From: Tubulanus polymorphus
Taxonomy: Eukaryota > Nemertea > Palaeonemertea > Tubulaniformes > Tubulanidae
Assembly: GCF_964204645.1 (NCBI RefSeq)
Contig: NC_134033.1
Span: forward strand, 15,998,155-16,062,154
DNA length: 64,000 nucleotides
Direction of reading: 5' to 3'
Shown: piece after piece, positions 4,401 through 27,671 of the stretch
How positions within the stretch are numbered: position 1 is the stretch's first letter
Layout: the number at the start of each line of letters is the position of its first letter
The notes under the pieces: model-generated
What the model was told of the DNA's origin: nothing
Seen by the model: only the letters and a program-made list of their open reading frames with translations
Database searches by the model: none
Program-made: the position numbers and the translations under genes

Positions 4401-6189
4401 AAGGAATGGTAATTTTTGCATTTATTTTAATGACTCGCGTTTAGAAGGGTTAATAACTCAATTGTATTTGTGTGTGTGTGTTAATAGAAAGAAGAGAAAA
4501 AAGGAATGATGGCGTTTACGGTCAAACCGACGAGCGGGGCGGGGCAGCGTGGGGCCGGGCAGCGCGGGGCCGAGCAACAACGTGAAAAAGAGAACGAGAA
4601 AAATCTACCAAACGACAAAAAGAAATCTGACAACGAGAAACCCGTTGAAAAGTAAAGTACATCGATTCATTTTACGGAAAGTTTTGTACGGTTTGTTATT
4701 TTCGATTACCGGTAATTTTTGCCGTCGTTTCAGGAAAAATAAAGGAAAAAGTAAGAAGTCAGTTCGACGCGGATCGGACCACGAAGAGTCGACTCAGAGT
4801 AAGAAACGTCGTCGAGTTAAAACTGTGATTGAAAGCAGCAGCAGCAGCGAGGACGACGGTGTGTATAATCACCTCTCTACCTCCCTCTATTCCTCCCAAC
4901 CTCTATTCCTCCCCTCTTTCTCTCTCTCTCTCTCTCGCTCCCCCTCCCCCTCCCTCTCCCTCTTTTCCATAACTTCATGTTTATTTTCCACAGGTATCGA
5001 CATAGACGACGATAGTCCAGTTCCTAGTCCGGCCGCAGCAGAACCGCGTGTAACCACACCCCCTCCGCCGGTCGCAGCCGAACCCGAACCTCCGCGAGTC
5101 GAACGGGTTACCGTGACGACGGCAGACGGTAAAGTTAAACGTAGGAAACGAGTGAGGAAGATGGTTCCGGAGACGTTCCTCGATGATGACGGATTCATGG
5201 GTGCGTACCGTTTCCGAAACCCGGGTTCATGGTTGTGATTGAGTTCAAACATCGGAAATCAACTAATTTGAGCTCGTCAAACTTCATTACAAACATAGTT
5301 AAAGATTAGTTCCTTTTCGTTGTTTCTTAACCTGTAAGTCAAGTTCTTACTAGGAACATTATAACCAGGGGCAGAATCATCCAACTGTATCCCTCGTTAA
5401 TCACCAGGGGGCAGTTGCATAGTTATGGCTTAGACTTAAGACCAGTCTAAGACCAACTTAGTTCTGTAGCCAATCTAACAACTTAAGACCAGTGTTAAGA
5501 TTTAAGACCAATTATGGACTTCTTAAGTCACAACTGGCCCCAGGACCCAGTTCTACAGTTGTGAGTTAAGATTTGACTGAAACGAGTAAACTAATGAAAA
5601 TGAGCTGATTCTAACTCTGAATTAAAATCAATGAATACTTTCAATGAGCTTACTCTGAATCAAATCTTGACTCACAACTGTGGAACTGGATCCGATTTCA
5701 TAGTCGAGACTAAAGTCTAAAAGTGGTCTTAAGTCGTGAGACTGGTCGTAAGTTGTCAGATTGGTTAAGATCTAATACCGGTCTTAAATCCAAGTTCCGA
5801 CAATTAATTGTCACTATGTCGATTATCCACTGGTTAACTCTAAACAACTTTTGACTGGTTGTTTTATTTGATGATGTCACTTCCTTGTGATTTCAGTGAC
5901 GAAGAACAAGTACGTATTTGAATCTTGTACGGACGACTCCGATTTAGAAGACGCGAAAAAACCGGCGAAATCGAATCCAGCTCACACGGCTAAAGCTAAA
6001 ATCGTACGTAAAACTGGACTTTTAAGTCGGGAGCAGGTGGAAAATTTTGCCAAATTCTTAATTCTCGATCTCTATTTGTAGGACGCGAAAGTTAAAGCCG
6101 GCGCCGGGAAAAAGAAAACGTCGCCTAGCGACAAAATGACGAGCAGCAACAAACAAACTTCGTTAATGAATTTCTTTCAGAAAAAATGA
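1417..6189 (+). CDS. POLD3: DNA polymerase delta subunit 3 (p66), 12 exons
   Basis: Accessory subunit of replicative DNA polymerase delta; acts in the nucleus and links the enzyme to PCNA. Coding exons: 1417-1464, 2009-2064, 2431-2533, 3105-3212, 3572-3636, 3711-3819, 3911-4039, 4488-4651, 4734-4858, 4994-5200, 5897-6003, 6082-6189. All junctions are GT-AG, phases join, and the product is 442 aa (human is 466). The N-terminus (MFLENLDEF, VTYKWL, LHITYLISGT) matches the family's POLD2-binding wing, and KGIAGMFAK matches a conserved vertebrate block. The middle is charged and low-complexity, with a serine-rich acidic patch (ESSSSSEDD) and a proline-rich stretch. The protein ends in a PIP box, QTSLMNFF, at about residues 432-439, where the family has its PCNA-binding motif. 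The ATG begins a frame with a family-like start and no upstream exon is needed. The exon 6 acceptor has a weak pyrimidine tract. Confidence 0.95.
2206..2384. repeat. 24-bp C-rich tandem repeat in POLD3 intron 2
   Basis: About eight near-perfect copies of a 24-bp unit built from tgtacccccgccccctactg plus cccc. The complement carries GGGGGCGGGGG and GGGG runs, so G-quadruplex (minus strand) or i-motif (plus strand) structures are possible. The array ends about 45 bp before POLD3 exon 3. It creates spurious open frames on both strands. Confidence 0.95.
2716..2993. mobile_element. MITE-like element with ~28-bp terminal inverted repeats
   Basis: The left end (ggcaaaaaaatgatacc then ttgtttctc) is inverted at the right end (gagaaacaaggaatcaatt then ttcttagcc). 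The inside is AT-rich and noncoding. A second copy of the same family lies at about 33686-33904 with matching ends and some matching internal sequence. It sits in POLD3 intron 3. Confidence 0.7.
4125..4350. repeat. 47-bp family tandem repeat (POLD3 intron 7)
   Basis: Degenerate tandem copies of a unit containing ggtcttaagttgttagattgg and a tatagaac(c/t) block, about 47 bp. The same family recurs at several other places in the window, in both orientations (see findings). Confidence 0.8.
5400..5780. repeat. Mixed dispersed repeat units in POLD3 intron 10
   Basis: This intron holds reverse-orientation copies of the 47-bp family (ccaatctaacaacttaagacc near 5460) followed by a copy of the second family (cagttctacagttgtgagtt near 5555, and its inverse near 5670). 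No coding sequence is seen here apart from the flanking exons. Confidence 0.6.
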
Positions 6190-8960: not shown

Positions 8961-9123
8961 AAATGAGAAATGGCCGAAAAGGTGCAGGTCCTGACTTTAA
9001 ACTCGCACCCAAGCTATGAACAATGTTAAGAAATCTCTACAAGGCTCTATCGGATATGTACCTTACTGACTAGCATAGCCTAGATATAAATTCATTTTAA
9101 ACACCACAATACAAATAAAGCAA

Positions 9124-9244
9124 GGGATCGTTCATTTATTACGTACGCATAAAATTTGCGTTTTTCAACCCCTTTCCTGCCTATGTACGCAAAATCGGGC
9201 ACTGACCCCTCCTCCCCTAATGTGTACATAATAAATGAATAACC
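9124..9244. mobile_element. Small MITE with cattcatttattacgtacgcat-type ends
   Basis: The left end gggatcgttcatttattacg is inverted at the right end (gtacataataaatgaataacc). The inside is C/T-rich and noncoding. The same family is inserted at 10890-11050. Confidence 0.7.
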
Positions 9245-9384
9245 AAATCAATAACTGATTGAAATAACTGTCGAAAAAGGTTATCATTAATTTAGGCATG
9301 ATTTATCAGCCTTGACCTTGGCATTCCTGGACGCGAAGCAATAAACAAACTTTAATAAACTGAATACATTTAATTAACAATATA

Positions 9385-9387
<3 letters not shown>

Positions 9388-9460
<73 letters not shown>
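9388..9460. repeat. (TA)n microsatellite
   Basis: About 73 bp of uninterrupted TA dinucleotide. It produces artefactual Y/I repeat open frames. Confidence 0.98.
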
Positions 9461-9467
<7 letters not shown>

Positions 9468-9827
9468 AAAATCAAAAGAAAACACTGAGAGCGACAACGT
9501 ATACAATAACATTGATAGTCGTTTGATACGTAAATATTTAATATGCTTGAGAAATAGATTTTGAATAAATTAATACACGGCGGGCGGTCAATTCATTATC
9601 ATGATTCACGCATAATCTACGAGAAAATAAAAACAAACAACCCTCAAAACAACAACAGCAGATAATAATCATAATCATTATCATAATCATAATCATATAT
9701 ATCAATATATCATGCAAAACAATAAAAATAATGATATTTCTCATTTTTTCGAAAGTGATGAAAACAGTTCTCGGGGTCCATCCAGGTATCCAGTCGCTCG
9801 ACTGGGTCTCCTAGCGTGGAGCTGGGC

Positions 9828-9995
9828 CTAGAGTGGAGTGTCCCCACCCCTCACCTAAAATTGAGTGCCCCCACCCCTCACCTAGAGTTGAGTGTCCACC
9901 CCTCACCTAGAGTTGAGTGCCCCCTCGCCTTGAGTTAAGTGCTCCCCCTCCCCTTCAACTCTAGTTGAGTGCCCCACCCTTCACCTAGAGTTGAG
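9828..9995. repeat. Tandem repeat of about 30 bp
   Basis: About six degenerate copies of a unit with cacctagagttgagtg and ccccacccct. No coding potential is evident. Confidence 0.85.
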
Positions 9996-10568
9996 TGGAA
10001 TAGGGCGAGATTTGTTTGAATTGCTAATACAGAGTTAGTACTGATGTGTATATACTGTGGGTTTCGTTCATTCTAAAATCTCTCTCTCTCTTCCCTCTCT
10101 CCGTGCTCTTATCTCCGCTCTCCCCGAGCGCAAAGACTCGATCAACGCAATCCCTCTATTTATCGGTTATTTTAATCAGCCATGAATAGAAACGCTTCTA
10201 AAACCATCGTTGCTGCTGCTATTTCGCGGAAGCTTTTAAATAGCTTTTAAAAACTATGCTAGAGACTATAATTTTATAGAACCTGGTTCTACAGTAGTTG
10301 AACTGGAGGAAAGCTCACTCTTCATTGAAAAACATAGAGTCAACTTAATCAGGGTCACTACAGATCAGTCATTCCTGGATATAAGGAGAACTTCATTCCA
10401 AACTTAATTCCACACGATGCAAAACTGATCAAAATAACACACGACAAATATTTTCCAGTCACTGCAACAAACGGCACATTTTTCAGCTTCGAAAATTCAT
10501 CTAGTTCGCGTAAATTATCACTTAAACTCGAGCGCCGCGAGATCGAGATATCGGTCGCGTGTCGCACG

Positions 10569-10711
10569 TCACACGGTCGTGTGTTTACGGAATTCCAACG
10601 ACGCGCTGTTCACGCAATAGCGCACGCCCGTCTGCTTTTTAGGTCCGTCGTCGAAAACGTGTCCGAGATGCGAGCCGCATTTCGCGCATGTCGCCTCGAT
10701 CCTCTGCAGAC
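10569..10711 (-). CDS. MSRB3: MSRB3 last exon B, no ER signal
   Basis: This exon encodes [19 protein letters not shown], the catalytic RYCVNSASL and a short tail KHTTV before the stop. It replaces exon A in the same reading phase and is complete for zinc binding and catalysis but lacks KDEL. The acceptor gtttcag is good. A possible ATTAAA signal lies on the minus strand at 10176-10171. The tail would fit a class I PDZ ligand (T-x-V), but that is speculation. It lies about 2.5 kb beyond exon A. Confidence 0.85.
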
Positions 10712-13700
10712 CTGAAACGGGAAAAAAAAACCGAAATATTATGTCGTGTATATTACCACTCGGTACGAGTGAACAAGCGGTGCAGACCCGCTTAAATCAT
10801 TCACGGGGAAAACCAGACCAATTTGGTGTATGAAATTTCCTTTCAGGCGGTTTTAACCCTTTCAGTGCTGGCTAATTAATACCCTATGGGATCATTCATT
10901 TATTACGTACGCATAGAATTTGAATTTTTCAACTCCCCTCCCCCTCTGTACGCAAAGCGGCCATTTTTTCATATACATTAAGCATTACAGTACGTAATTG
11001 CCCTGACCCCTCCCCCTCCCTTGATGCGTACGTAATAAATGAATGACCCCTATGGTGCTGGAGATGATTTGAAAATTTTGAAAAATTCCACCCTAGTGTG
11101 TTTAATAACGGGAAAACCACGCGGCACGGTGAATCTTAGTTACTGATATTTCACTGTTTCACAGGTGCTGCCATCTTTCAATAGATATAAAAACTAATTA
11201 CTAATTACATCAATACACCATAGTGCAGTGTACTAGCGTGGTGTTCTAGCAAAATCCATCACTGATTTATACACCGCACTGCGGTGTTGATGCACTGAAA
11301 GGGTTAAGAGGAAAAACCGAGCATTAGGCTACAGGTGTGGCACATACACGTACGGTTTAATCTGATTCGAAAAGATTACCATAGTTTTATGTTTCAACTC
11401 TATTACATGGTAATTTTAATCCACATCAGTGAATATTAAAACGTTCACGTATAGCTGCGAGTTATAAAGGATCTAATTCGGCAGTTGTTACGGTTGGAGG
11501 CTAGTAACACTCATCGGTTATAGTTCATTTCAAATGTTTTACAAGCGAATATGAGATGGACATTCCTTTCGAGATGCCGATTTTCCACGGGTTCTACTAT
11601 TGCCGCGGCGAATTTACTTCAATTTCGTCAAAACGTGGAATAGCAAGAAAATAAAACATTATTCACTAAACCATTGCCGCAGCAGCTACAGTTCCAACGC
11701 CACTGTTAGCCCAGGCCCAATTGGTATAGATCGCACCTGAGTCTAATTTGGCCCGTGCTTCATAATTAGAGAGTGCACTCACACGTAAACCACTCACTCA
11801 ATACTAAACAATCCTTTAACAAAGTGAAGTGAGTCAGAGCATGGACGTATAAACTAGATTAGTTTAGTTTATACGTCCATGGTCAGAGTCACTTCCGGAA
11901 CCAGTTGCAATTTAAACGCAATAACTTGACCCTTGCTAAAATTTGGCTCGATCTGGTCTGACATTTTTGTCAGGCCAAACAGGTAAGCCGATTTGGCACC
12001 TGTTGCTCCCGGCTAAATTTGGCACGGGCCAAAAATACTCGGGTGATCACTGCTATTATTGAACACTCCTCTGTAAACACACCACTGTCTATCATACAAC
12101 TATCCACTTATTTGCTCTGCTTTTAAACATGTTTAGTTTGTGTAACTATTTTCATGTCGTTCCTAGTTTCTATCATGTTTTATTACTTAATCAGTCTCTT
12201 TGTTCTAGATTATGTATTTCGCTGAGCGTGATGACTTAGTCAGATATAGTCGAAACGACCCCTGATATACCGCGGGCCCACATCGGCGCAGAACGGTTTT
12301 GGCGGTATAGAGAGTATGGCGGTATATCGGGGGTGTTTTATTATGTATCGGTATCGAGATGTACATTGAGAAATCCTGGCGAGGCTGGCGGGGGCGGAGG
12401 TAAATGGAAGGGCGGTATATCGGGGGTTGACTGTAGTTTGAAGAAACATTTCCGACTCTTTTTTCTTTTGATTTGAGGGATTGTATATTAGCTCAGTATT
12501 TCTCGGGTCTTGTATAAAGGAACTCCTTCCTCATTGATCTCACGGAGTAGTTGTTTGTACGGAATAGTTCTGCAATGTAGAAAGCGTGCTGGAATTTGAA
12601 ACACCTGCAGCTAAAACTGTATTACTAAAAATATAGCAGCAGCAACATCAGTGGCAGCAACAGCAAGCAATATCTCATCAGATATTCCACTGACATACCC
12701 ACAATTATATACCACTAGAGTATAGGGGTTCAGATATCACTGTAACATAGGGGTGCAGATACCCCTGTAACATAGGGGTGCAGATACCACAGTAACATAG
12801 GGGTGCAGATACCCCTGTAACATAGAGTTCCAAATACCACTGTAACTTAGGGGTTCAGATACCCCCGTAACATAGAGTTCCAAATACCCCTGTAACATAG
12901 AGTTCCAGATACCCCTGTAACATAAGAGTTCCAGATACCCCTGTAACACAGGGTTCTAGATACCCCTGTAAAAGCAATTTTCCAAATATTTCCCGGATTA
13001 GCATAAAATCGATCGAATTCCCAAATATTTCCAAACACAGGGAACCGCGAGCGCAGTGTTTAAACTACTACACGATAAACCCATTAGAGAGAGATAGAGA
13101 ATTCACCAGAAAATCAAGACTTAAAAGAAAATATTCAATGTTTTTCATCATTCTTTATTTATTCAACTTTTAAAAATACGATTTACAATTCATCTTTATC
13201 ATCGGAATCGGACGCCCGAAATCTTAACGAAGCCGAATTGATACAATAACGTACTCCAGTCGGCAACGGTCCGTCAGGGAAAACGTGTCCCAGGTGAGCC
13301 CCGCAACTACCGCACAATACTTCAATACGTTCCATCCCTGTAATCAAACCTTAGTCCCATAATATCTACATTCGAGTAAGGCCAAGTCATCAGGGGCAGA
13401 TCCTGAGGCAGACTTTGACGGGGGACAAAAAATGAAAAGGGTATAAACTGAAATATGGCAAGTTAACTATCCACGCACACAAAACAAGGGTCTGGGAAAT
13501 GTCAGTGTACACGTATTTTCATACAATTTCTAGGCGCTTGATGGACATTGAAGAGAATAAGCTAAATTTTCCATATACCTATAAGTTACATATCGCCAAC
13601 CTAGAACAGGCAATGTAGGTTCATTCAAAGTAAGTGCCAATTATCATCAACAATGTGTTTTTTCATGAAGTTTGTTATCAAATGTGTAATAGGACATTTA

Positions 13701-15686
13701 CTGGTTGGTATAGGCATACAGCCTAAAATTCAAAATAGAAGGGAAATTTCATTTTGTCACCTTTTCCTGATTTTCCATACATTTTCCTAAGCCATGTAGA
13801 GAACAAAAAACAAAAATTCTATAGTTTTTTGAGGGGCTGGGAAAAATGCCCACTTTCCAGAATCTGTAAGAACCACGCTACGACTACGGGCAACCTGATT
13901 CTCCTTCATTCAACTAAACCGTTAACACCCACTGGGAACCAACTCAGGACACCACTAAATCAGCAGGTTCGGATCAAGCAACTGAGCGCCAGCCACTCAG
14001 GGAATTTTTAAAAACTGGTTCAGCATTCCTTCTTCCCCCGTTAAAAAGCCTAGACATACAGAGTAGGCCTCTGAGTAGCAGAGGTCAGGTTGAGGAGAGG
14101 CCAAGGACCAGTGTTCTACATTTTGACGACAAGATAAAATATTTCATTTTTCCAATCTAAAATTCTCTAGAAAATGAAACCACAACGACGATATGAAACT
14201 TGATCTATAGTCTACATCTACACCGACGAACTACCACTGCTTCAACAGTTATATCTATATTATGAATAATCTAATTCTATTAATTGATAATATATTTCAA
14301 AGATTACTTAAATCCGACAGTTTAGAGATTTAACCAAATTTCATCTTCAGAGAAACAGTGCTGTTACTGTTATCACTGATTCTCTGAAGATGGGGGGTAT
14401 CTATCCTCCCCAGGCAGAGATTTGAACCTGATGACCCTTCCACACTAGACCGGGTGTGCACGAAACTTGCGGCGCCAATCAGCTCCTCAGATCGCTCGTT
14501 GTATAATCGCTGAGGCAAATTTCGAGGAAAAACTATAAATGGGATCCATCGCTTAACACTTAAAAACGTTTTTTCGCGGAGAAAATGAAAAGCCGACGAC
14601 AAATGAAACGGAGTGAGTCTTACCGTGTGAGAAATCTTTAACGAGGGTCACTTTTGATTTGTCGAGCGAGTCGAAGAAAGACGGCCAGCCGCAACTCGTC
14701 GAATATTTCGCGTCCGACGAGAATAAATGATTTCCGCAGACGATGCATTGATAAATTCCGTCCTCGTTTAGATTCACGTATTTACCGCTGAATGGCCTGA
14801 AAATACAATTATTACAATTCGTTTATTCGCTACTATAGAATTCTAATTCAGCAAATCACGCAGCCTTATTAGGGTTGTTACAAATCTTAAGTAACAAGTT
14901 GTCAGTTTGTCTATGAAGATCTTCTTTTGACTGGTCCAAATGGATCCAAATCAGCCAACAGGACTTACTTGCACTGATGTAAGTTAGATTGGCTATAGAA
15001 CTAAAATGAGCTCAGACTGATCCAAATTGTTAGATTGGTTATAGAACCAAAATGAACTTGGATTGGTCTCAATTTGTTAGATTTGTGATAGAACCAAAAT
15101 GAGTTTAAACTGGTTTTAAGTTGGTAGATTGGTTATAGAACTAAAATGAGCATAGACTGGTCTCAAGTTGTTAGATTGGTTATAGAACTAAACAGAGCTT
15201 AGACTAGTCTTAAGTTGTTTGATTGGCAATAGAACTAAATAGAGCTTAGACTGGTCTTAAGTTGCTAGATTGGTTATAGAACCAAAATGAGTTGAGACTA
15301 GTCTTAAGTTGCTAGATTGGTTATAGAACCAAAATGAGTTTAGACTAGTCTTAAGTTGGTAGATTGGTTATAGGCCTAGAACTAATAATGTTCTTAGACT
15401 GACCCCCCAAGTCTAAGCCCTGACTGTTCAACAGCTTCGAAGGACAGCTGCTCCTCATCGATACTCACTTTTCAGTTCCACCCTCTTGTGTAACCCGGTA
15501 CTCGGTCGCCGTTAAACGCTCTTTCAATTCTTCTTTCGGGAATTGTTCGTTATCGCATTTCGGACGTTTCTGTTTACACGAAGCCTCTAATTCTTTAAAC
15601 GTCGCCGATTTCTCATCTTTAACAATGCGTAAGATATTCATGAATACGAACAGACCCGTCGCCGTAGCGATCAACCGTCCTAACAT
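10569..15686 (-). CDS. MSRB3: MSRB3-like methionine-R-sulfoxide reductase, alternative last exons
   Basis: Reduces methionine-R-sulfoxide in proteins. Shared exons: 15469-15686 and 14624-14796 (minus strand). They then join either exon A (13183-13337; 181 aa product) or exon B (10569-10711; 177 aa product). Junction phases fit both ways, and both give a glycine codon at the join (FSHG). The N-terminus ([15 protein letters not shown]) is hydrophobic and could be an ER signal or anchor, or possibly a mitochondrial presequence. The first zinc-binding pair is CIVC and the GWPSFF block is in exon 2. Each last exon supplies the second CxxC, the HLGHVF block and the catalytic cysteine in RYC(I/V)NSASL. 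The start chosen is the first ATG in frame; upstream noncoding exons are possible. Vertebrate MSRB3 also has ER and mitochondrial isoforms, but there they arise at the N-terminus. Confidence 0.92.
10855..11306. mobile_element. MITE (aaccctttcagtgct ends) with a second MITE nested inside
   Basis: The outer element has ends aaccctttcagtgctgg and tgcactgaaagggtt as inverted repeats, and internal cacaccgcactgcggtgt-like palindromes. At 10890-11050 it is interrupted by a 161-bp element with ~25-bp inverted ends (atcattcatttattacgtac). The direct repeat tatgg flanks the insertion on both sides. An uninterrupted relative near 40853 reads straight through at this point (taccctatagtgctgg), confirming the empty site. 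Confidence 0.85.
11840..11881. mobile_element. 42-bp palindromic mini-insertion with 7-bp duplication
   Basis: The left arm catggacgtataaacta is inverted as tagtttatacgtccatg with only a few bases between. The direct repeat gtcagag lies immediately on both sides (11833-11839 and 11882-11888). The other copy is at 18343-18386. It consists of two terminal repeats back to back with no cargo. Confidence 0.75.
12725..12965. repeat. 25-bp tandem repeat in the MSRB3 locus
   Basis: About ten copies of a 24-25 bp unit of the form gatacccctgtaacatagg with ggtgca or agttcca variants. It sits between alternative exons A and B of MSRB3. Open frames across it are repeat artefacts. Confidence 0.92.
13183..13337 (-). 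CDS. MSRB3: MSRB3 last exon A, ending in KDEL
   Basis: This exon encodes [19 protein letters not shown], the catalytic RYCINSASL and a tail ending DDKDEL then stop. KDEL is the canonical ER retrieval signal, so this isoform should be retained in the ER lumen. Human MSRB3A ends in KAEL. An AATAAA hexamer on the minus strand at 13159-13154, 24 nt after the stop, supports a real transcript end here. The acceptor is attacag with a good upstream T-run. Confidence 0.9.
14385..14560 (-). mobile_element. SINE-like repeat copy
   Basis: This copy shares long blocks (gcagagatttgaacctgatg, cacactagaccgggtgtgca, gttgtataatcgctgaggca) with copies at 54235-54375 and 60125-60430. A B-box-like sequence is present on the minus strand. 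It lies in the MSRB3 intron just downstream of exon 2. Confidence 0.75.
14905..15420. repeat. 47-bp family tandem array in MSRB3 intron 1
   Basis: About ten copies of the unit ggtcttaagttgttagattgg / ttatagaaccaaaatgag, the largest array of this dispersed family in the window. It ends some 50 bp from MSRB3 exon 1. Confidence 0.9.
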
Positions 15687-15689
15687 CAA

Positions 15690-17600
15690 CCACCGCGACC
15701 GCTGCTGATATCACTGAAAATAGATCCGCATAATACATATTAGAGTTCTGGAAATCTGCAAAGTTTGAGTCCAGGGGCCCGTGTAGAAATAATAATATAG
15801 GCCTAATAATGATAATAAGAATAATGATAATTTGTTTTCTTATAGGCCTGTAGCGCGATGCTAACCCTTAACCCAATAAAATGATTTTATTGTTACATAA
15901 TATATGGATCCGGTAAAATATCTTTTATAAGTCGGTAACCGGATCCGGCTAAATAACCACTTCCTACAATTTACATTCAACTTCACGAAGTCAGTCTATT
16001 CGTTGACATTTTGAGCTAGTTTTCCAAAACAAAACGGTTATTGACTATGAAATGAGCACTGACCTGTTTTCAGCAGTCTCTATGAGATTCTGAACCAGTA
16101 AATTCGATCTGTCAGTGCTGTAAACACTACTATTACAGCTGTCAGGAGAGACACGGTCGATTGATTTACAAAATCACCGATTATGTTGCAGAGCGCCGCC
16201 TAGCCAGTGGGAATGCTAGTTACTGTTTCGTAAGCACCAGGGCCGATCGTTTACAAACCTGCTAGACTGGTCGCCTGTCCAATTCTGCGCCACCTGCATT
16301 CGCAGGTTTAGACCGGCAACTAGTTTAGAAACCTGGGTGCCTGCCAGCCTTCATCCTCGCTTGCCAGGGGTTGGTTATCGCTACCGAACTCGGATCGCCT
16401 GACACAAAAAATTGTTTACCCCAGTATATATAAAACAATGTCTTTTCGTCAAAGAAGCCCCTCGGCCAAAAGTCCAAAACGTCAATGAGTCACGGCCTCC
16501 GCTGCAGAGGCGGGCGTTGACAATCGGATGGGTTACTAAAGTATTTTCTTTCATCGACATATTTTCTATGTAGGCTATGCAGTATAAATCATATGTTATT
16601 ACAAACAAGAGGGATGCATATAGATGGCTCATGGATGCGCGGCTTTATATCTCATCACCTGTTATAGGGATATTTCGTTTTTCTATAACATACCTCAAAT
16701 ACCGTACGAGGACCAGTGAATCTGCGCAGTCTGAATAAACCAGTGTTCTTATATCAATCTTTCACTGCGGTATGCCCTATTGAAGGATCGCCGAAAAGTG
16801 GATTTAGTCATTAAAACATTTTTTGTGCCCACGCCACATTATTGCCATGTTGGTAAAACCATTTACTATAATATTGGAGAGAGCACTTACAACACAAATA
16901 CTAAGACCAGTGAAACTGTGCAGCCCGAAAACCGTGTCGTGTTTATATTCATTTTGCAGTCTTTAAGTCGATTTTTTGTCATTAAAACATTTTTTGCTCA
17001 CGCCACATTTTCAAACTCTATATGCGATAATCAGTCAAATTTGTAAACTCCCTGGTGCAGTCTTAATAAACCATCGATTTTATCCATTTGTCGGTTTTTA
17101 AGTCGATTTCTTTTCGCATCAAAACATATTTTGCTCACACTACATTTACTCACTTATTGCTCACCGCAAGTGATAAGTATGTGATAATCAGTCATTTTAC
17201 CCCGGAATTTGGTGATAGGATGAACGGAGGTGGTGGGGGCCAGTCACACAGATTATAATGCGCGGCCTGTGTGGAATTAGTCACGCGTTTTGTTACGTCT
17301 TTTTTATACAAACGATGATTAACGACACAAAATAATAATTGGGAAATGCGGAAGTTTTTTTAAATTTTTCTATAGATGAATATATTTATATATAGTATAT
17401 TGACGATCAATTAAATCAGTTTGAAATATCTGTTTTACACAGAAACATTGAGAATGGTATTAGAATCAATAGATTATTCAATTTTGTTTGAAATCGACGA
17501 TTAAAAAATCTTCCTAGTAAGTAGCACTCACTATTATTATACGTGACGCTCACGCATTGTGTCTATTTACAAAAACTGTGTTGTTTCATTCGGGTTTTAC
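15690..17600. other. Spacer between divergent MSRB3 and Ig-domain genes
   Basis: No supported exon is seen. It contains the foldback relative at about 16250-16340 and a degenerate repeat of about 150-190 bp at roughly 16740-17200 (three related blocks around cattaaaacattttttg and ctcacgccacatt). Promoters for both flanking genes should lie at its ends; only the one at 17622 has a clear TATA box. Confidence 0.5.
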
Positions 17601-17621
17601 CAATTTTTTTCGGCGGGCCCG

Positions 17622-17628
17622 TATAAAT
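17622..17628 (+). promoter_or_regulatory. TATA box and noncoding first exon of the Ig-domain gene
   Basis: tataaat lies about 90 bp before a good donor (aaacag|gttagt, exon end 17716). The predicted noncoding exon of about 65 bp (roughly 17650-17716) would splice to the acceptor ttccag at 19209, which is 24 bp before the ATG at 19234. Both splice sites are strong, but the transcript is an inference. Confidence 0.55.
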
Positions 17629-18342
17629 ACCGTCCAATTCCCAATACCTCATCATCAGGCATTTCGCTTGGAAACAGTTGAACAACTATCGAAACAATCT
17701 CTGAATCGCCAAACAGGTTAGTCTTATGTCGTCTGATATAAATTGACGTTATTTCGAGTTCGCTTTATCGTAAACTTTTTACATATAGTTTTGGAAAGAT
17801 TTTTCATGAAATGTTTATTTTCGAACAAGTCGAAAACGATCATGTCGCCTCGCCTTAAATTCACTATTCTTATTTATGATAAAATTCAAGGGCAATTCTT
17901 TTGATTAAGAAGACTATTTGAAATAGGCAAATTCAGGGATCGAACAAGGAAGGGTGGTTGGTAAAAATCCCGGACCAGTGTATATAGGCCTTCATAGTGA
18001 TTGCGTCTGGTTATGTCGGTAACGAGTGGTCAGTGTGGTGGACCATAGCCATTGACTATACAGTATAACTCGGTTTAATTCCGTTCGGTTTTATCATATT
18101 TCACTTATTTCGGACTAAAATTTCAGTCCCGAGGTTATTTCTATTCAAACGAAAGCGCATGATTCGGAAAAATGTTTCCAGTCCCAGGTGATCCGAATTA
18201 AGCGAGTTCTACTGAATTTTTAGTGGCGCTCGGTGTACATTACTATAACTACCCGCTATCATTCCCGCAACAACCTTCACCCGGTCCTGGCAGTGGTCAG
18301 CTCTCCACAGTGATCTCCGTCACTCTATCATCCTAGTGTAAC

Positions 18343-18386
18343 CACGGACGTATAAACTAGATTATAATCTAGTTTATACGTCCATG
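18343..18386. mobile_element. 44-bp palindromic mini-insertion with 7-bp duplication
   Basis: cacggacgtataaactag is followed by ctagtttatacgtccatg around attataat. The direct repeat gtgtaac flanks both sides (18336-18342 and 18387-18393). The ends match the element at 11840-11881. Confidence 0.78.
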
Positions 18387-19233
18387 GTGTAACCTAGGAG
18401 AAATCATTTGTCAAATGATTACTCCAAGGTGTAACCGACTGTGTGGTGCAACAGACACTAAGGTTCTTGGTGAAGCAATTACCTTGATGCGTGGACTTTA
18501 GTATCCATGCTTAGAGTAATCATTTGACAAATTATTACTCCAAGCGATTACATAATTTTTGAGTCATCTCAATTTGAAGAGGTGTTGATCTGATGGTAGA
18601 TAGATAGATAGATGATGATGTGGCTTATATTCCATTGGAACACTAATAATGTCATGGTCAATCATCTCGTTACATTGCTCTCTCTCTCTCTACAGGCTCA
18701 TTAACCTAATTAGAGACCTGATTGTGCAAATATTGTCAACAGCAATTTCCCCGAGCACGAAAACCATGTATCGAATATCCCTCGATGAAACTATAGTCCG
18801 CAGTGAATATGAAATTGTAGAGATTCCGCGGCATTAACGCCGGTGAACATATTCGAATTTTGTCTTCCGTTTTCGTTGTGGGAATCGCTACATATTATCT
18901 TCACGATATATTGTTTTATCGATGGTTATCCACGGTGGAATCCGACTTATGGGCAAGAGTGCACGAATGCGCGGCAAGCAAAAACCATCTAACCCGAAAT
19001 GAAAATAGATTCGAACGATGAAGATGAAAAAGTTTTCAAAAATTCATCCCGATTTCTAAAAATGTTTATGTATGCAAAACTTGATATATAACTACCTCGA
19101 AATCATTATGATTTTAAAGCGTTTTGAGAAATATCCAGTATCAAGTTCATAGAATTCAACCCTGACATTGCATTCGAATGATTAAGATTCCCTCTTTAAC
19201 TTTTTCCAGTAGCTTGAACTCGTTGAATCCAAG

Positions 19234-21046
19234 ATGAATGTGACTCCGCGCGTCTTCTTCATAGCGCTATGCGTTACTTTGATACACGGTGAGTTTCCAT
19301 AGAAATTTCATTTGATTTAGAAAGAAATGCGAATTTTCCGTCGACTTTCATGCGGGTGCTCGTGGTGTATAGCGGCCTTCTAGCACTTGCTCGGCCCGCA
19401 TAAGAGTCTTCTCAATTTCATTTCTGCTTTGTTTGTAAATATTCTTAAAACAGGCTACCTTATAAAATGAATTGAAATTGAATGAAATTGGAGCCAGCAG
19501 ATCCATGATTTTACTGGCATTCTATTTCTTGAAAATCCTGTATCTATTTTCAGTTTCATGTTCGTCAATAAGAATTACGGCTCCTGTTATTGAATTTGCC
19601 TGCGATGAGTTCTCGGCCACTTTGACGTGCCCGGTCGCCGATAACAGTAGTAGTGTAGTATGGCATCGGCTAGTTCACGGGAACTGGCTGCCGTTACAAG
19701 TGGGTCGCTTGGGACGTAACTCCTGGAAGCCTGTCGTCGGCGATATGTCAAAGATATCGACGAGATCGGTGAACACACACATGGCCGGAAAGTATCGCTG
19801 TAGTTATCCATCCGGTGCTATTATTCACGAGGTCGAACTCAGAGTCGACGGTACGTATTTCATTGATGCTTCTTCAAAAAAAAAAAATTGAATTAGAAAA
19901 AATCTAGTTTGTTCCAGAATTCATCGTAAACGTATTTGCTGTGATCAATTCAGCTTTTCAATTTTACCGACATCAAACGGTTTAATCCATGGCAATTTTC
20001 AAACAGATTCCACCAGCGGGGCATTTCCGTAAATTATGCAAATGAAGACAGTCGTAATATGCAAATCACCAACATTGATTTTCATTCACGTATTTTCGGT
20101 CTATAAATTAGTCATAATCAGTTACGTGTTTCTAGATTTAAAACTCTTCGCATTTTCAGTTTGTAACGGTCAAGTCGGTGACTGTACTGCGAAACCGGTT
20201 CTCGGCGATTTCGAGAATTTTAAAAATCGTAAAATCGAGATCAGCAGACGACACGGCGAGTCGGTTGCGTTTAAATGTAGCACGTTGAACGACTGGTTTT
20301 GTTTGAACTCGGATTGTTCTCAATGTTCCTCTGCGAAGGCAGACGACTCCTCTTCCCCGTCTGTCGTCTCGTCGTCGTTCAGATTTAAGTGAGTCGCGTT
20401 CGACGCGAAAACGAAAAACGTTCGATTCTGGATGGACAGTATCTACACTAATAGGTATGGCTATAGGATCACGGACAAAGATCAATTTTTTGGTTTAATC
20501 ACCGAATTTATATATTATTAATTCATGCTTTCAATGAGGACAACAATTAAAATTTAACCATTTTATGCTTAAACATTTTAATGAAACTGAACCCGGATTT
20601 TGAGAGGGGGACCGGGGCGTACTGGTCCAACCCCTCCAAAACTTGAATGTTTCACCAATGTTTCACACCTGCAGCCCTCGCATTGCCAACTCGGCCCTTT
20701 TTAAATTAAGTGTCCAATAAAATGTCTAAGACCACCCCGTTCAAAGAATCCTAGATCCACCATTGGAACCCTTGTTGCACCATATCTGGTGTGGTCTGGT
20801 GTACCTCACACAAGGCTTGACATTATAAGACCCGACACCTGGGCTTTGGAATCAACTTATTTCTTATCTGAGATTTTTCTTGCATTTCATAATTTCAGTA
20901 TCGACTACAGCTCATCGGAAGTAACGCTACATAATCTGAAGCGGTCCGACTCGGCAATTTACACGTGCTTCCTACCGAATTACTACGATCGAAAGACTAT
21001 ACATCCCGCTTTATTGAGATTTGAATACGTATTGACGGTCACATAA
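19234..21046 (+). CDS. Secreted protein with two Ig-like domains, 4 coding exons
   Basis: Exons 19234-19288, 19554-19850, 20160-20388, 20899-21046 join to 242 aa. Exon 1 encodes a signal peptide (MNVTPRVFFIALCVTLIH). Exon 2 is one Ig-like domain with cysteines in ATLTCPV and GKYRCSY and a tryptophan in VVWHRL. Exons 3 and 4 form a second one, with FKCSTLNDW, then LKRSDSAIYTC near the end, including the usual D-x-A-x-Y-x-C pattern. The first two introns are phase 1, as usual for Ig modules. A serine-rich insert with extra cysteines (NSDCSQC) lies in domain 2. There is no transmembrane segment or GPI-like tail, so it should be secreted. I cannot assign it to a named family; adhesion or immune recognition are both possible. 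Its own TATA promoter suggests regulated expression. Confidence 0.75.
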
Positions 21047-22125: not shown

Positions 22126-22614
22126 TATATAGTACCTAGGATACTGTGGTCAAAATCATTTTGTATCAAGTCCCTGTGGCTGGTACGAATAAAAATATGG
22201 CGTTATAAAGAGTGATATTTTCATTAAATTTGAGTTTTATTGAGCAAATTTGTTCTCTGCAGAAAATGTTGGCGTCGAGTAAGCAGTGGCATTACAAACG
22301 ATGACTGCGTTAAAACGAACTTTTGACATTGGAGTACAAAGCACAAGATTTGATTGTCATTTCACAAATTTCTACTTGAGGCAGAAACAACCCGTTCTTC
22401 CCGCCGATTCTCACAAATTGCCGGTTGCAGGTTATCGCGGCGCGCGTACTGCCATTAACTCAAAACGCGTACGGTTTAGAAACATTGTCACGACGTCTCA
22501 TTTTTTTTAAGTACCGCTCCCGAACACCGGATAACCAGTAGTTAACTGCGAGCAAATGCGCGCGTGTTCCCGCTTCGGCGTTTCCTCGACTTATACCTCA
22601 GGCGCGTCGAAGTG

Positions 22615-23667
22615 ATGAACACAGGCAATGTAACCACAGGTTGGCACCCGGATCCACGGTGCGGAGTAACGATTCATATCAATTCTGGACAATTAATCGA
22701 CCGATATCTTTCCGATGTGTCCATGACGGTAGCTAGATGCGCCCTCTATGCAGCGGGTACGGTACTAAATCTCATATCGTACGTAGTTTTAGGGATGATG
22801 AAACTGAATAATTCCAGTGTGTTGTATTTGCGGTGTATCGCTCTGGCTGAAACTGTGCATTGTTTCATGGCGTTGTTCGGACGCGAATTATACGTATTGT
22901 CCAGGATATCTCCTTTCTTTAATCGCTACAAATACAAGGGATCTTTTTTAAATATGTATCTTCTAAATATACCACTAGTCGACACAGTCTATCGCATGTC
23001 ATCAAGAGCCAGAGACTGGTTACTGTTTGGGCTTTCGTTCGATAGATATTTAGCAATAGTTTTACCGCTTGTATCTTTGAGACTGTGCAGTTTGTCTAGA
23101 ACTAAACTAATATGTGTTTTCATGTGTACGTTTGCAACTTTGCTCGAAGTCCCGACCTATTGGGACAAAGTTATGGGAATCATCCCTCATAAATGTACCG
23201 GTCTACCCACTATAAAGAGTTATAAGTATCTTTTAAAACACAGGATGTACGCGCTTCTGTACGACACTATAGTCGGCAGTCTTTTGGCCAATTTGGTGCC
23301 GGGAACTGCTGTGATATGTTGTAACGTGCACATGTTGGTAATTCTGAAACGCACGTTCAGAGATCGGGCCAAACTGCAATTAAAACAGAATGAGAAAATG
23401 ATCGAAGAACAAAACCAAGGTTTACAGATCACAAAAATTGTCCTCATATTGAATTCGTTTTATTTTTTAGTATTTTCGATGAATTTGCTAAATACGCTTA
23501 TTCCTGTTTTCGGTACTAGGGCCAGTTTTCGTCCCTTTCATTCCGGTCAACTTCTACTGGCTGTGAATTCCATGATTAACTTCTTCGTTTATATTTTCAT
23601 TCGAAAGGATTTCGGGCGAACTGCTCTTCGGCTCGTGTCTTGTGGTATACTAGGGAAAAGGGTCTGA
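22615..23667 (+). CDS. Rhodopsin-like GPCR, tandem copy 1
   Basis: A single-exon seven-transmembrane receptor of 350 aa (class A). Visible marks: an N-glycosylation site near the start (NVT), the TM3 end motif DRYLAIVLPL, and a TM7 block NSMINFFVYIF in which the usual NPxxY proline is replaced, as in many FMRFamide- and neuropeptide-type receptors. TM2 has ALAE where most have LAxxD. Extracellular cysteines occur in PDPRCG and in the second outer loop (HKCTGLP). The ATG at 22615 matches the start conserved in the second copy; the frame is open further upstream but without an ATG. The paralogue lies 4 kb downstream at 26616. Ligand unknown: a peptide or chemosensory receptor is plausible. Confidence 0.85.
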   Translation: MNTGNVTTGWHPDPRCGVTIHINSGQLIDRYLSDVSMTVARCALYAAGTVLNLISYVVLGMMKLNNSSVLYLRCIALAETVHCFMALFGRELYVLSRISPFFNRYKYKGSFLNMYLLNIPLVDTVYRMSSRARDWLLFGLSFDRYLAIVLPLVSLRLCSLSRTKLICVFMCTFATLLEVPTYWDKVMGIIPHKCTGLPTIKSYKYLLKHRMYALLYDTIVGSLLANLVPGTAVICCNVHMLVILKRTFRDRAKLQLKQNEKMIEEQNQGLQITKIVLILNSFYFLVFSMNLLNTLIPVFGTRASFRPFHSGQLLLAVNSMINFFVYIFIRKDFGRTALRLVSCGILGKRV

Positions 23668-26300: not shown

Positions 26301-26615
26301 TAACTCCATTAACTTTTAAGGTTTAATTGACGTTTTCAATTAGAACAAAATGAAAAATAACGTTTCGTAAATTCATACGGCGTTGTGTGAGACCGTTTGG
26401 GTTTTTCAAGAATGAATGTGGTGAATGCTTTACAAATTTCTGCTTCTGGCGGAGACAACGACTCATTATTCTTCTCCCGATTCTCACAAATCGCTGGTTA
26501 TCGCGACGCGTGTACTGTGTCATCGACTCGCTGACTATAGGCGGTGTTTAGTGTTACAATAACATGTTAGAATCGTTTTTGAACATCTTTGTAACCACAG
26601 GTTTCGATCGCAGTG

Positions 26616-27671
26616 ATGAACACAGGCAATGTAACCGCAGGTTGGCATCCAGACCCACGGTGCGGAGTAACGATTCATATCTATTCCGGCAGACCGATCG
26701 ACCGTTACCTTCCCGAATTGTGCATGACAATAACTAGATGCGCCCTCTATTCAGCGGGTACGGTACTGAATCTCATATCGTACGTAGTTTTAGGGATGAT
26801 GAAACTGAATAATTCCAGTGTGTTGTATTTGCGGTGTATCGCTCTGGCTGAAACTGTGCATTGTTTCATGGCGTTGTTCGGACGCGAATTATACTTGTTG
26901 TGCAAAGTATCTCCGTTCCTCGATCGGTACAAATTTAAGAAATCTTTTTTGAATACGTATCTAGTAAACGCATTCCAAATTCTCGAAACAGTCTACCACA
27001 TGTCATCAAGAACCAGAGACTGGTTACTGTTTGGGCTTTCGTTCGATAGATATTTAGCAATAGTTTTACCGCTTGTATCTTTGAGACTGTGCAGTTTGTC
27101 TAGAACTAAACTAATATGTGTTTTCATGTGTACGTTTGCAACTTTGCTCGAAGTCCCGACCTACTGGGACAGAATTATGGAAATCAGACCTCATACATGT
27201 ACCGGACTGCCCACCATATACGGCGGTATGGGCTTGTTAAGATACAGAATGTACGCGCTTCTGTACGACACTATAGTCGGCAGTCTTTTGGCCAATTTGG
27301 TGCCGGGAACTGCTGTGATATGTTGTAACGTGCACATGTTGGTAATTCTGAAACGCACGTTCAGAGATCGGGCCAAGCTGCAACTAAAACCGAATGAGAA
27401 AATGATCGAAGAACAAAACCAAGGTTTACAGATCACAAAAATTGTCCTCATATTGAATTCTTTTTATTTTTTAGTATTTTCGATGGTTTTGCTGAATACG
27501 CTTATTCCTGTTTTCGGTTCTATGGCCAGTTTTCGTCCCTTTCATTCCGGACAACTTCTAGTGGCTGTGAATTCCATGATAAACTTTTTCGTTTATATTT
27601 TCATTCGTAAAGGTTTTGGCCGAACTACATTGTGGCTCTTGTCATGTGGAATACTAGGGGAAAGGGGTTAA
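26616..27671 (+). CDS. Rhodopsin-like GPCR, tandem copy 2
   Basis: A single-exon receptor of 351 aa, paralogous to the gene at 22615. It has the same motifs (DRYLAIVLPL, NSMINFFVYIF). The transmembrane and inner-loop blocks are nearly identical at the DNA level. The N-terminal region, first outer loop (KVSPFLDRYKFKKSFLN) and second outer loop (DRIMEIRPHTCTGLP, YGGMGLLRYR) differ strongly. An in-frame TAA lies eight codons before the ATG, so the start is well fixed unless an upstream intron exists. Both copies look intact and functional. Likely a peptide or chemosensory receptor; no ligand can be inferred. Confidence 0.85.
   Translation: MNTGNVTAGWHPDPRCGVTIHIYSGRPIDRYLPELCMTITRCALYSAGTVLNLISYVVLGMMKLNNSSVLYLRCIALAETVHCFMALFGRELYLLCKVSPFLDRYKFKKSFLNTYLVNAFQILETVYHMSSRTRDWLLFGLSFDRYLAIVLPLVSLRLCSLSRTKLICVFMCTFATLLEVPTYWDRIMEIRPHTCTGLPTIYGGMGLLRYRMYALLYDTIVGSLLANLVPGTAVICCNVHMLVILKRTFRDRAKLQLKPNEKMIEEQNQGLQITKIVLILNSFYFLVFSMVLLNTLIPVFGSMASFRPFHSGQLLVAVNSMINFFVYIFIRKGFGRTTLWLLSCGILGERG

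Follow-up and report, generated by a model that had tools for sequence, protein, structure and literature searches.

An MSRB3-like gene with two homologous catalytic last exons, proposed to be used alternatively with and without a KDEL end

Direct reading of the DNA reveals an MSRB3-like gene on the minus strand, comprising common coding exons and two homologous last exons, A and B. It lies in the window (the whole stretch of 64,000 nucleotides analysed here, positions 15998155-16062154 of contig C9 in an assembly of 267.8 Mb and 77 contigs, whose gene content is that of an animal). We propose, with a probability of roughly 0.6, that this is one MSRB3-type gene in which an old tandem duplication copied the last, catalytic exon, and that the two copies have both been kept as alternative terminal exons, with the choice of the tail deciding whether the enzyme is retained in the ER. 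That exons A and B are both genuine alternative last exons is highly probable from the sequence, and that the main consequence of their exchange would be a loss of ER retention we give a chance slightly below even. The features on which this proposal is built are the following:

15713-15711, minus strand: in-frame TGA right after an acceptor-like tttcag (read from the sequence; acceptor score in the top 9%)
15686-15469, minus strand: common coding exon 1, with the hydrophobic N-terminus, a CX6C pair (SCKQKRPKC) and the first part of the SelR domain (read from the sequence; single genomic copy found)
15469, minus strand: donor of exon 1, AAA/gtgagt (top 1.6% of GTs)
14796-14624, minus strand: common coding exon 2, with the first zinc CxxC and the GWPSF block with a bacterial-type proximal cysteine (STSCGWPSF) (SelR match, E 4.7e-17)
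14624, minus strand: donor of exon 2, ACG/gtaaga
13337-13183, minus strand: putative alternative last exon A, with the second zinc CxxC, ending in DDKDEL (SelR match, E 1.2e-14; translation; weak acceptor)
13154-13163, minus strand: overlapping poly(A) signals of exon A, AATAAATAAA, with hexamers that begin 20 and 24 nt downstream of its stop codon
10712-10731, minus strand: acceptor of exon B with its polypyrimidine tract (tttttttttcccgtttcag), scoring highest of all acceptors in 9,000-20,000
10711-10569, minus strand: putative alternative last exon B, with the second zinc CxxC, ending in RKHTTV (SelR match, E 3.2e-15; unique in the genome)

Anatomy and family membership of the gene

The existence of two last exons, with and without KDEL, had been proposed in a sequence-only reading of the same DNA, and its anatomical claims are borne out. 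Both splice junctions that it named, 14624 to 13337 and 14624 to 10711, agree with the DNA to the nucleotide, and the glycine codon split after its first base, claimed to be regenerated in the same phase by both exons, is read as GGG with exon A and as GGT with exon B. The spliced products comprise 181 aa with exon A (KDEL end) and 177 aa with exon B (KHTTV end), and their translation confirms that the second zinc CxxC and the catalytic RYC(I/V)NSASL are intact in both exons. The AATAAA noted 24 nt past the stop of exon A is indeed present, overlapped by the second hexamer at 20 nt, and the gap of 2.5 kb between the two exons amounts to 2,471 nt. Two tandem repeats accompany these exons: a 47-bp repeat in 8.3 copies (14983-15373) in the intron that separates exon 1 from exon 2, and a minisatellite of about ten 25-bp units (12722-12971) between exons A and B, whose units hold TTACAGGGG, a near-match to the exon A acceptor TTACAG/GG. 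A plus-strand frame at 4510-5238, convergent with the MSRB3-like gene, resembles DNA polymerase delta subunit 3 (a weak CDC27 match, just below the cut-off), and the window also contains two adjacent, very similar rhodopsin-type GPCR frames (7tm_1), at 22546-23667 and 26595-27671, each open for about 360 codons.

Both products contain the SelR domain (PF01641), matched over 115 of its 116 positions with E-values of 1e-48 for product A and 4e-49 for product B, and with scores of 164.5 and 165.9 bits, respectively, against a curated cut-off of 24.9. Their zinc motifs are CIVC plus CGSC or CAKC, and the catalytic motif reads RYCINS or RYCVNS. In comparison with the solved mammalian MSRBs, product A scores 166 bits with MsrB3, 128 with MsrB2 and 64 with MsrB1, the corresponding values for product B being 158, 114 and 63 bits; chains of human MsrB3 rank among the top solved-structure matches to both products. 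In the alignment, the CX6C pair sits where human MsrB3 has its CX5C resolving pair, and a KDEL-like C-terminus, absent from the product of exon B, is found in that of exon A. The human MsrB3 matches and the KDEL-type end, and more tentatively the N-terminal CX6C pair, support the MSRB3 identity that had been claimed for this gene.

A search of the whole genome with the SelR model returned exon 2, exon B (63.6 bits), exon A (61.8 bits) and one exon on contig C4 (E 1.2e-8). Exon 1, searched for with a protein query, was found once, and the DNA of exon B likewise occurs once in the genome; thus, there is one set of upstream exons for two last exons. The scores of exons A and B, obtained genome-wide, rule out a chance ORF. 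Apart from the exons of this gene, the searches showed one separate SelR gene, which leaves exon B without alternative upstream partners; a second upstream gene half that would feed it was found nowhere in the genome, by a search that can miss weak matches. The separate SelR gene (contig C4, region 23927418) reads GPKEGQSRF-TGA-IFSESMKFLP, and it resembles selenoprotein MSRB1, with a TGA where vertebrate MSRB1 has Sec; Rfam found no SECIS element in 3.2 kb of this region.

Processing signals and divergence of the last exons

Splice sites were scored with a generic PWM, and the acceptors were ranked among the 595 AGs in 11 kb. The acceptor of exon B (cggtttttttttcccgtttcag) ranks best of them all and that of exon 2 falls in the top 4%, while the acceptor of exon A (ggactaaggtttgattacag) is weak (top 17%, with 7/16 pyrimidines) and was counted against the proposal. 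The acceptors, both described as sound in the sequence-only reading, therefore deserve this description in the case of exon B but not of exon A. Also counted against the proposal is the absence of AATAAA in the 1.4 kb past the stop of exon B, where the nearest ATTAAA lies at about 390 nt. Judged by these signals, the layout is one of weak-proximal and strong-distal alternative terminal exons. Genes with a regulated choice of terminal exon typically set a weak proximal acceptor and a strong poly(A) signal against a strong acceptor farther downstream, and by analogy the choice of terminal exon may be regulated in the MSRB3-like gene too.

Over 41 aligned codons, the two last exons show 11 differences at first, 9 at second and 28 at third positions, an excess at the third (Fisher P 4e-6), so that third codon positions are near saturation, with 29 of the 41 amino acids (71%) identical and 12 different. 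The value of pS is 0.87 (saturated) and that of pN 0.24, which gives a pN/pS of 0.27 (bootstrap 0.15-0.46), and this pattern of substitutions fits purifying selection on both exons. The residues invariant in 66 prokaryotic MsrBs are all kept in exons A and B, two pattern-fixed positions aside; these 66 proteins, whose residue frequencies are biased at positions inside the search patterns, come from a scan of genome contigs that returned prokaryotic MsrBs alone, and a scan of viral contigs returned no relatives.

This conservation bears on the possibility of exon B being a relic of the old duplication that has ceased to be spliced or is spliced very rarely, with exon A alone functional, which we consider unlikely. 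Had one copy drifted freely for half of the divergence, 53% of first and second positions would be expected to differ, compared with the 24% seen (P 2e-7), and simulated drift never retained 27/40 residues; moreover, exon B combines an intact ORF with the best acceptor in 11 kb and the purifying pattern. A relic would agree with the lack of a canonical AATAAA near exon B, and the substitutions are compatible with a very recent loss of function, or with a much shorter branch leading to exon B (drift with only about 0.2 of the divergence on that branch gives P 0.23).

As the identity between exons A and B is about that between exon A and human MSRB3 (68%), the exon duplication is probably old, 41 sites being too few to date it. 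The same similarity of distances speaks for another origin, in which exon B would be what remains of a separate MSRB gene, e.g. a lost MSRB2, captured as a last exon with no tandem copying of exon A, and so does the SelR model search of the whole genome, in which no separate MSRB2-like gene was seen. We regard such a capture as more improbable still than a relic: the intron phase and position of exon B are exactly those of exon A, and the MsrB2 scores lend no support to a captured MSRB2 exon, given that product B is no closer to MSRB2 than product A (114 vs 128 bits, with exons 1-2 common to both).

The common N-terminus and the predicted location of the two forms

In the proposed mechanism of alternative terminal exons, recognition of the exon A acceptor and use of its poly(A) signal would end the mRNA there and yield an enzyme with KDEL, while skipping of exon A would join exon 2 to the distal acceptor of exon B and yield an enzyme without KDEL. 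Presumably both mRNAs are made, and both proteins would enter the secretory pathway via their common hydrophobic N-terminus. Form A would then be retrieved by KDEL receptors, and form B would escape retrieval and be secreted, exposed at the surface or located later in the pathway, possibly anchored in the membrane. Retention of A in the ER and escape of B are plausible. Of the earlier suggestion that a duplicated catalytic exon could switch the enzyme between compartments by 3'-end choice, the duplication and the 3'-end choice are well supported by anatomy, uniqueness and selection, and the switch of compartment is what we infer from the tails.

The shared N-terminus is hydrophobic, as had been claimed: from Arg4 to Arg20 it encloses a core of 15 hydrophobic residues with a KD mean of 2.0 and a low hydrophobic moment, for which a signal peptide or signal anchor appears a better fit than a classical presequence. 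Inspection of the N-terminal sequence revealed no obvious small-x-small cleavage site, which was counted against the proposal. Because of the in-frame TGA at 15713-15711, a coding exon joined at that acceptor cannot extend the frame upstream; an upstream coding exon altering the N-terminus is thereby blocked, as far as this one acceptor is concerned, and both tails probably have one common N-terminus.

In favour of the proposal, human MsrB3 pairs a signal sequence for the ER with a KDEL-like C-terminus; when cut before its KAEL, however, it is reportedly still localised to the ER (PMC7475093), so that loss of KDEL need not mean secretion. This report favours a different account of the two exons, according to which both are used but differ mainly in catalysis or regulation (substrate, reductant, tissue or stress), with both products remaining in the ER or the secretory pathway. 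The 12 residues that differ, and a loop before the catalytic Cys that is one residue longer in exon B, point in the same direction, as does the alternative oxidase (AOX) of oyster, in which a duplicated last exon serves the stress response and the changes adjoin functional sites (PMC5589949). On the other hand, the invariant active-site residues are alike in both exons, and the tails differ most sharply in the exact KDEL, present in one and absent from the other. We hold this account possible, with the odds against it.

The proximal Cys of exon 2 (within 14680-14703) coexists with the N-terminal CX6C pair of exon 1, and since both lie in common exons, both forms would have both. A Cys occupies the proximal resolving position in 34/66 prokaryotic homologs, while in human MsrB3 the resolving cysteines are the N-terminal CX5C pair, the proximal position being Ser/Thr in mammals (PMC7475093), which have kept the N-terminal pair only. 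It is conceivable, if doubtful, that one gene supplies two forms of methionine-R-sulfoxide reductase, one resident in the ER and the other secreted or at the cell surface, the two resolving-Cys systems of the common half allowing recycling in different redox compartments. The HTTV end of exon B (10583-10569) matches the consensus of class I PDZ ligands (S/T-x-hydrophobic), which is short enough to be matched by chance.

Relation to known systems

Human MsrB3A/B (PDB 6q9v, 6qa0; PMC7475093) resembles the gene described here in its SelR fold, in a Cys pair close to a hydrophobic N-terminus, in a KDEL-like end and in the RYC.NSA active site. However, it is the first exon that varies between the human isoforms, with no known difference in the last one, whereas here there is a further last exon, catalytic too but lacking KDEL, a CX6C in place of CX5C, and in addition the proximal Cys that mammals replaced by Ser/Thr. 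The location of Msr enzymes in mammals and Drosophila is set by alternative first exons (PMC1431549); there, too, one gene serves several compartments through alternative splicing, but the choice is N-terminal, while here it would be C-terminal and would swap a part of the active site.

Outside the Msr family, the tandem duplicated exon 10 of oyster AOX (PMC5589949) is likewise a catalytic last exon of an oxidoreductase, of about 40 aa and similar divergence, subject to alternative 3' splicing; it carries no targeting tag, however, and one oyster variant retains both exons in the mRNA. In crld-1 of C. elegans (PMC6245729), one gene likewise yields C-termini with or without KDEL through the choice of its last exon, but the exons encode unlike tails (transmembrane or KDEL), there are no duplicated catalytic exons, and both forms are in the ER. 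Homologous exons are also swapped in the tandem duplicated exon substitutions of human genes (PMC9741552), at the C-terminus in 77/236 events; those swaps seldom overlap ligand-binding or functional residues, whereas the exon swapped here carries the catalytic Cys and a zinc CxxC. The sequence-only reading had regarded the gene as a solution different from that of vertebrates, and this holds in relation to known MSR genes with their alternative first exons (PMC1431549), but KDEL/non-KDEL last exons and a duplicated catalytic last exon are already known from crld-1 and oyster AOX, respectively. In the part of the open-access literature covered, we found no Msr with alternative last exons or a C-terminal switch, and predicted isoforms may already be in the databases; each part has a precedent, and the combination appears to be unreported.

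If the proposal is true, a C-terminal switch that replaces the catalytic half would meet, at the opposite end of the gene, the same need as the choice of first exons. The two forms would also make a natural matched pair with which to ask what KDEL adds to an enzyme reported to be ER-resident without it in human cells, and they raise the possibility of extracellular methionine-R-sulfoxide repair.
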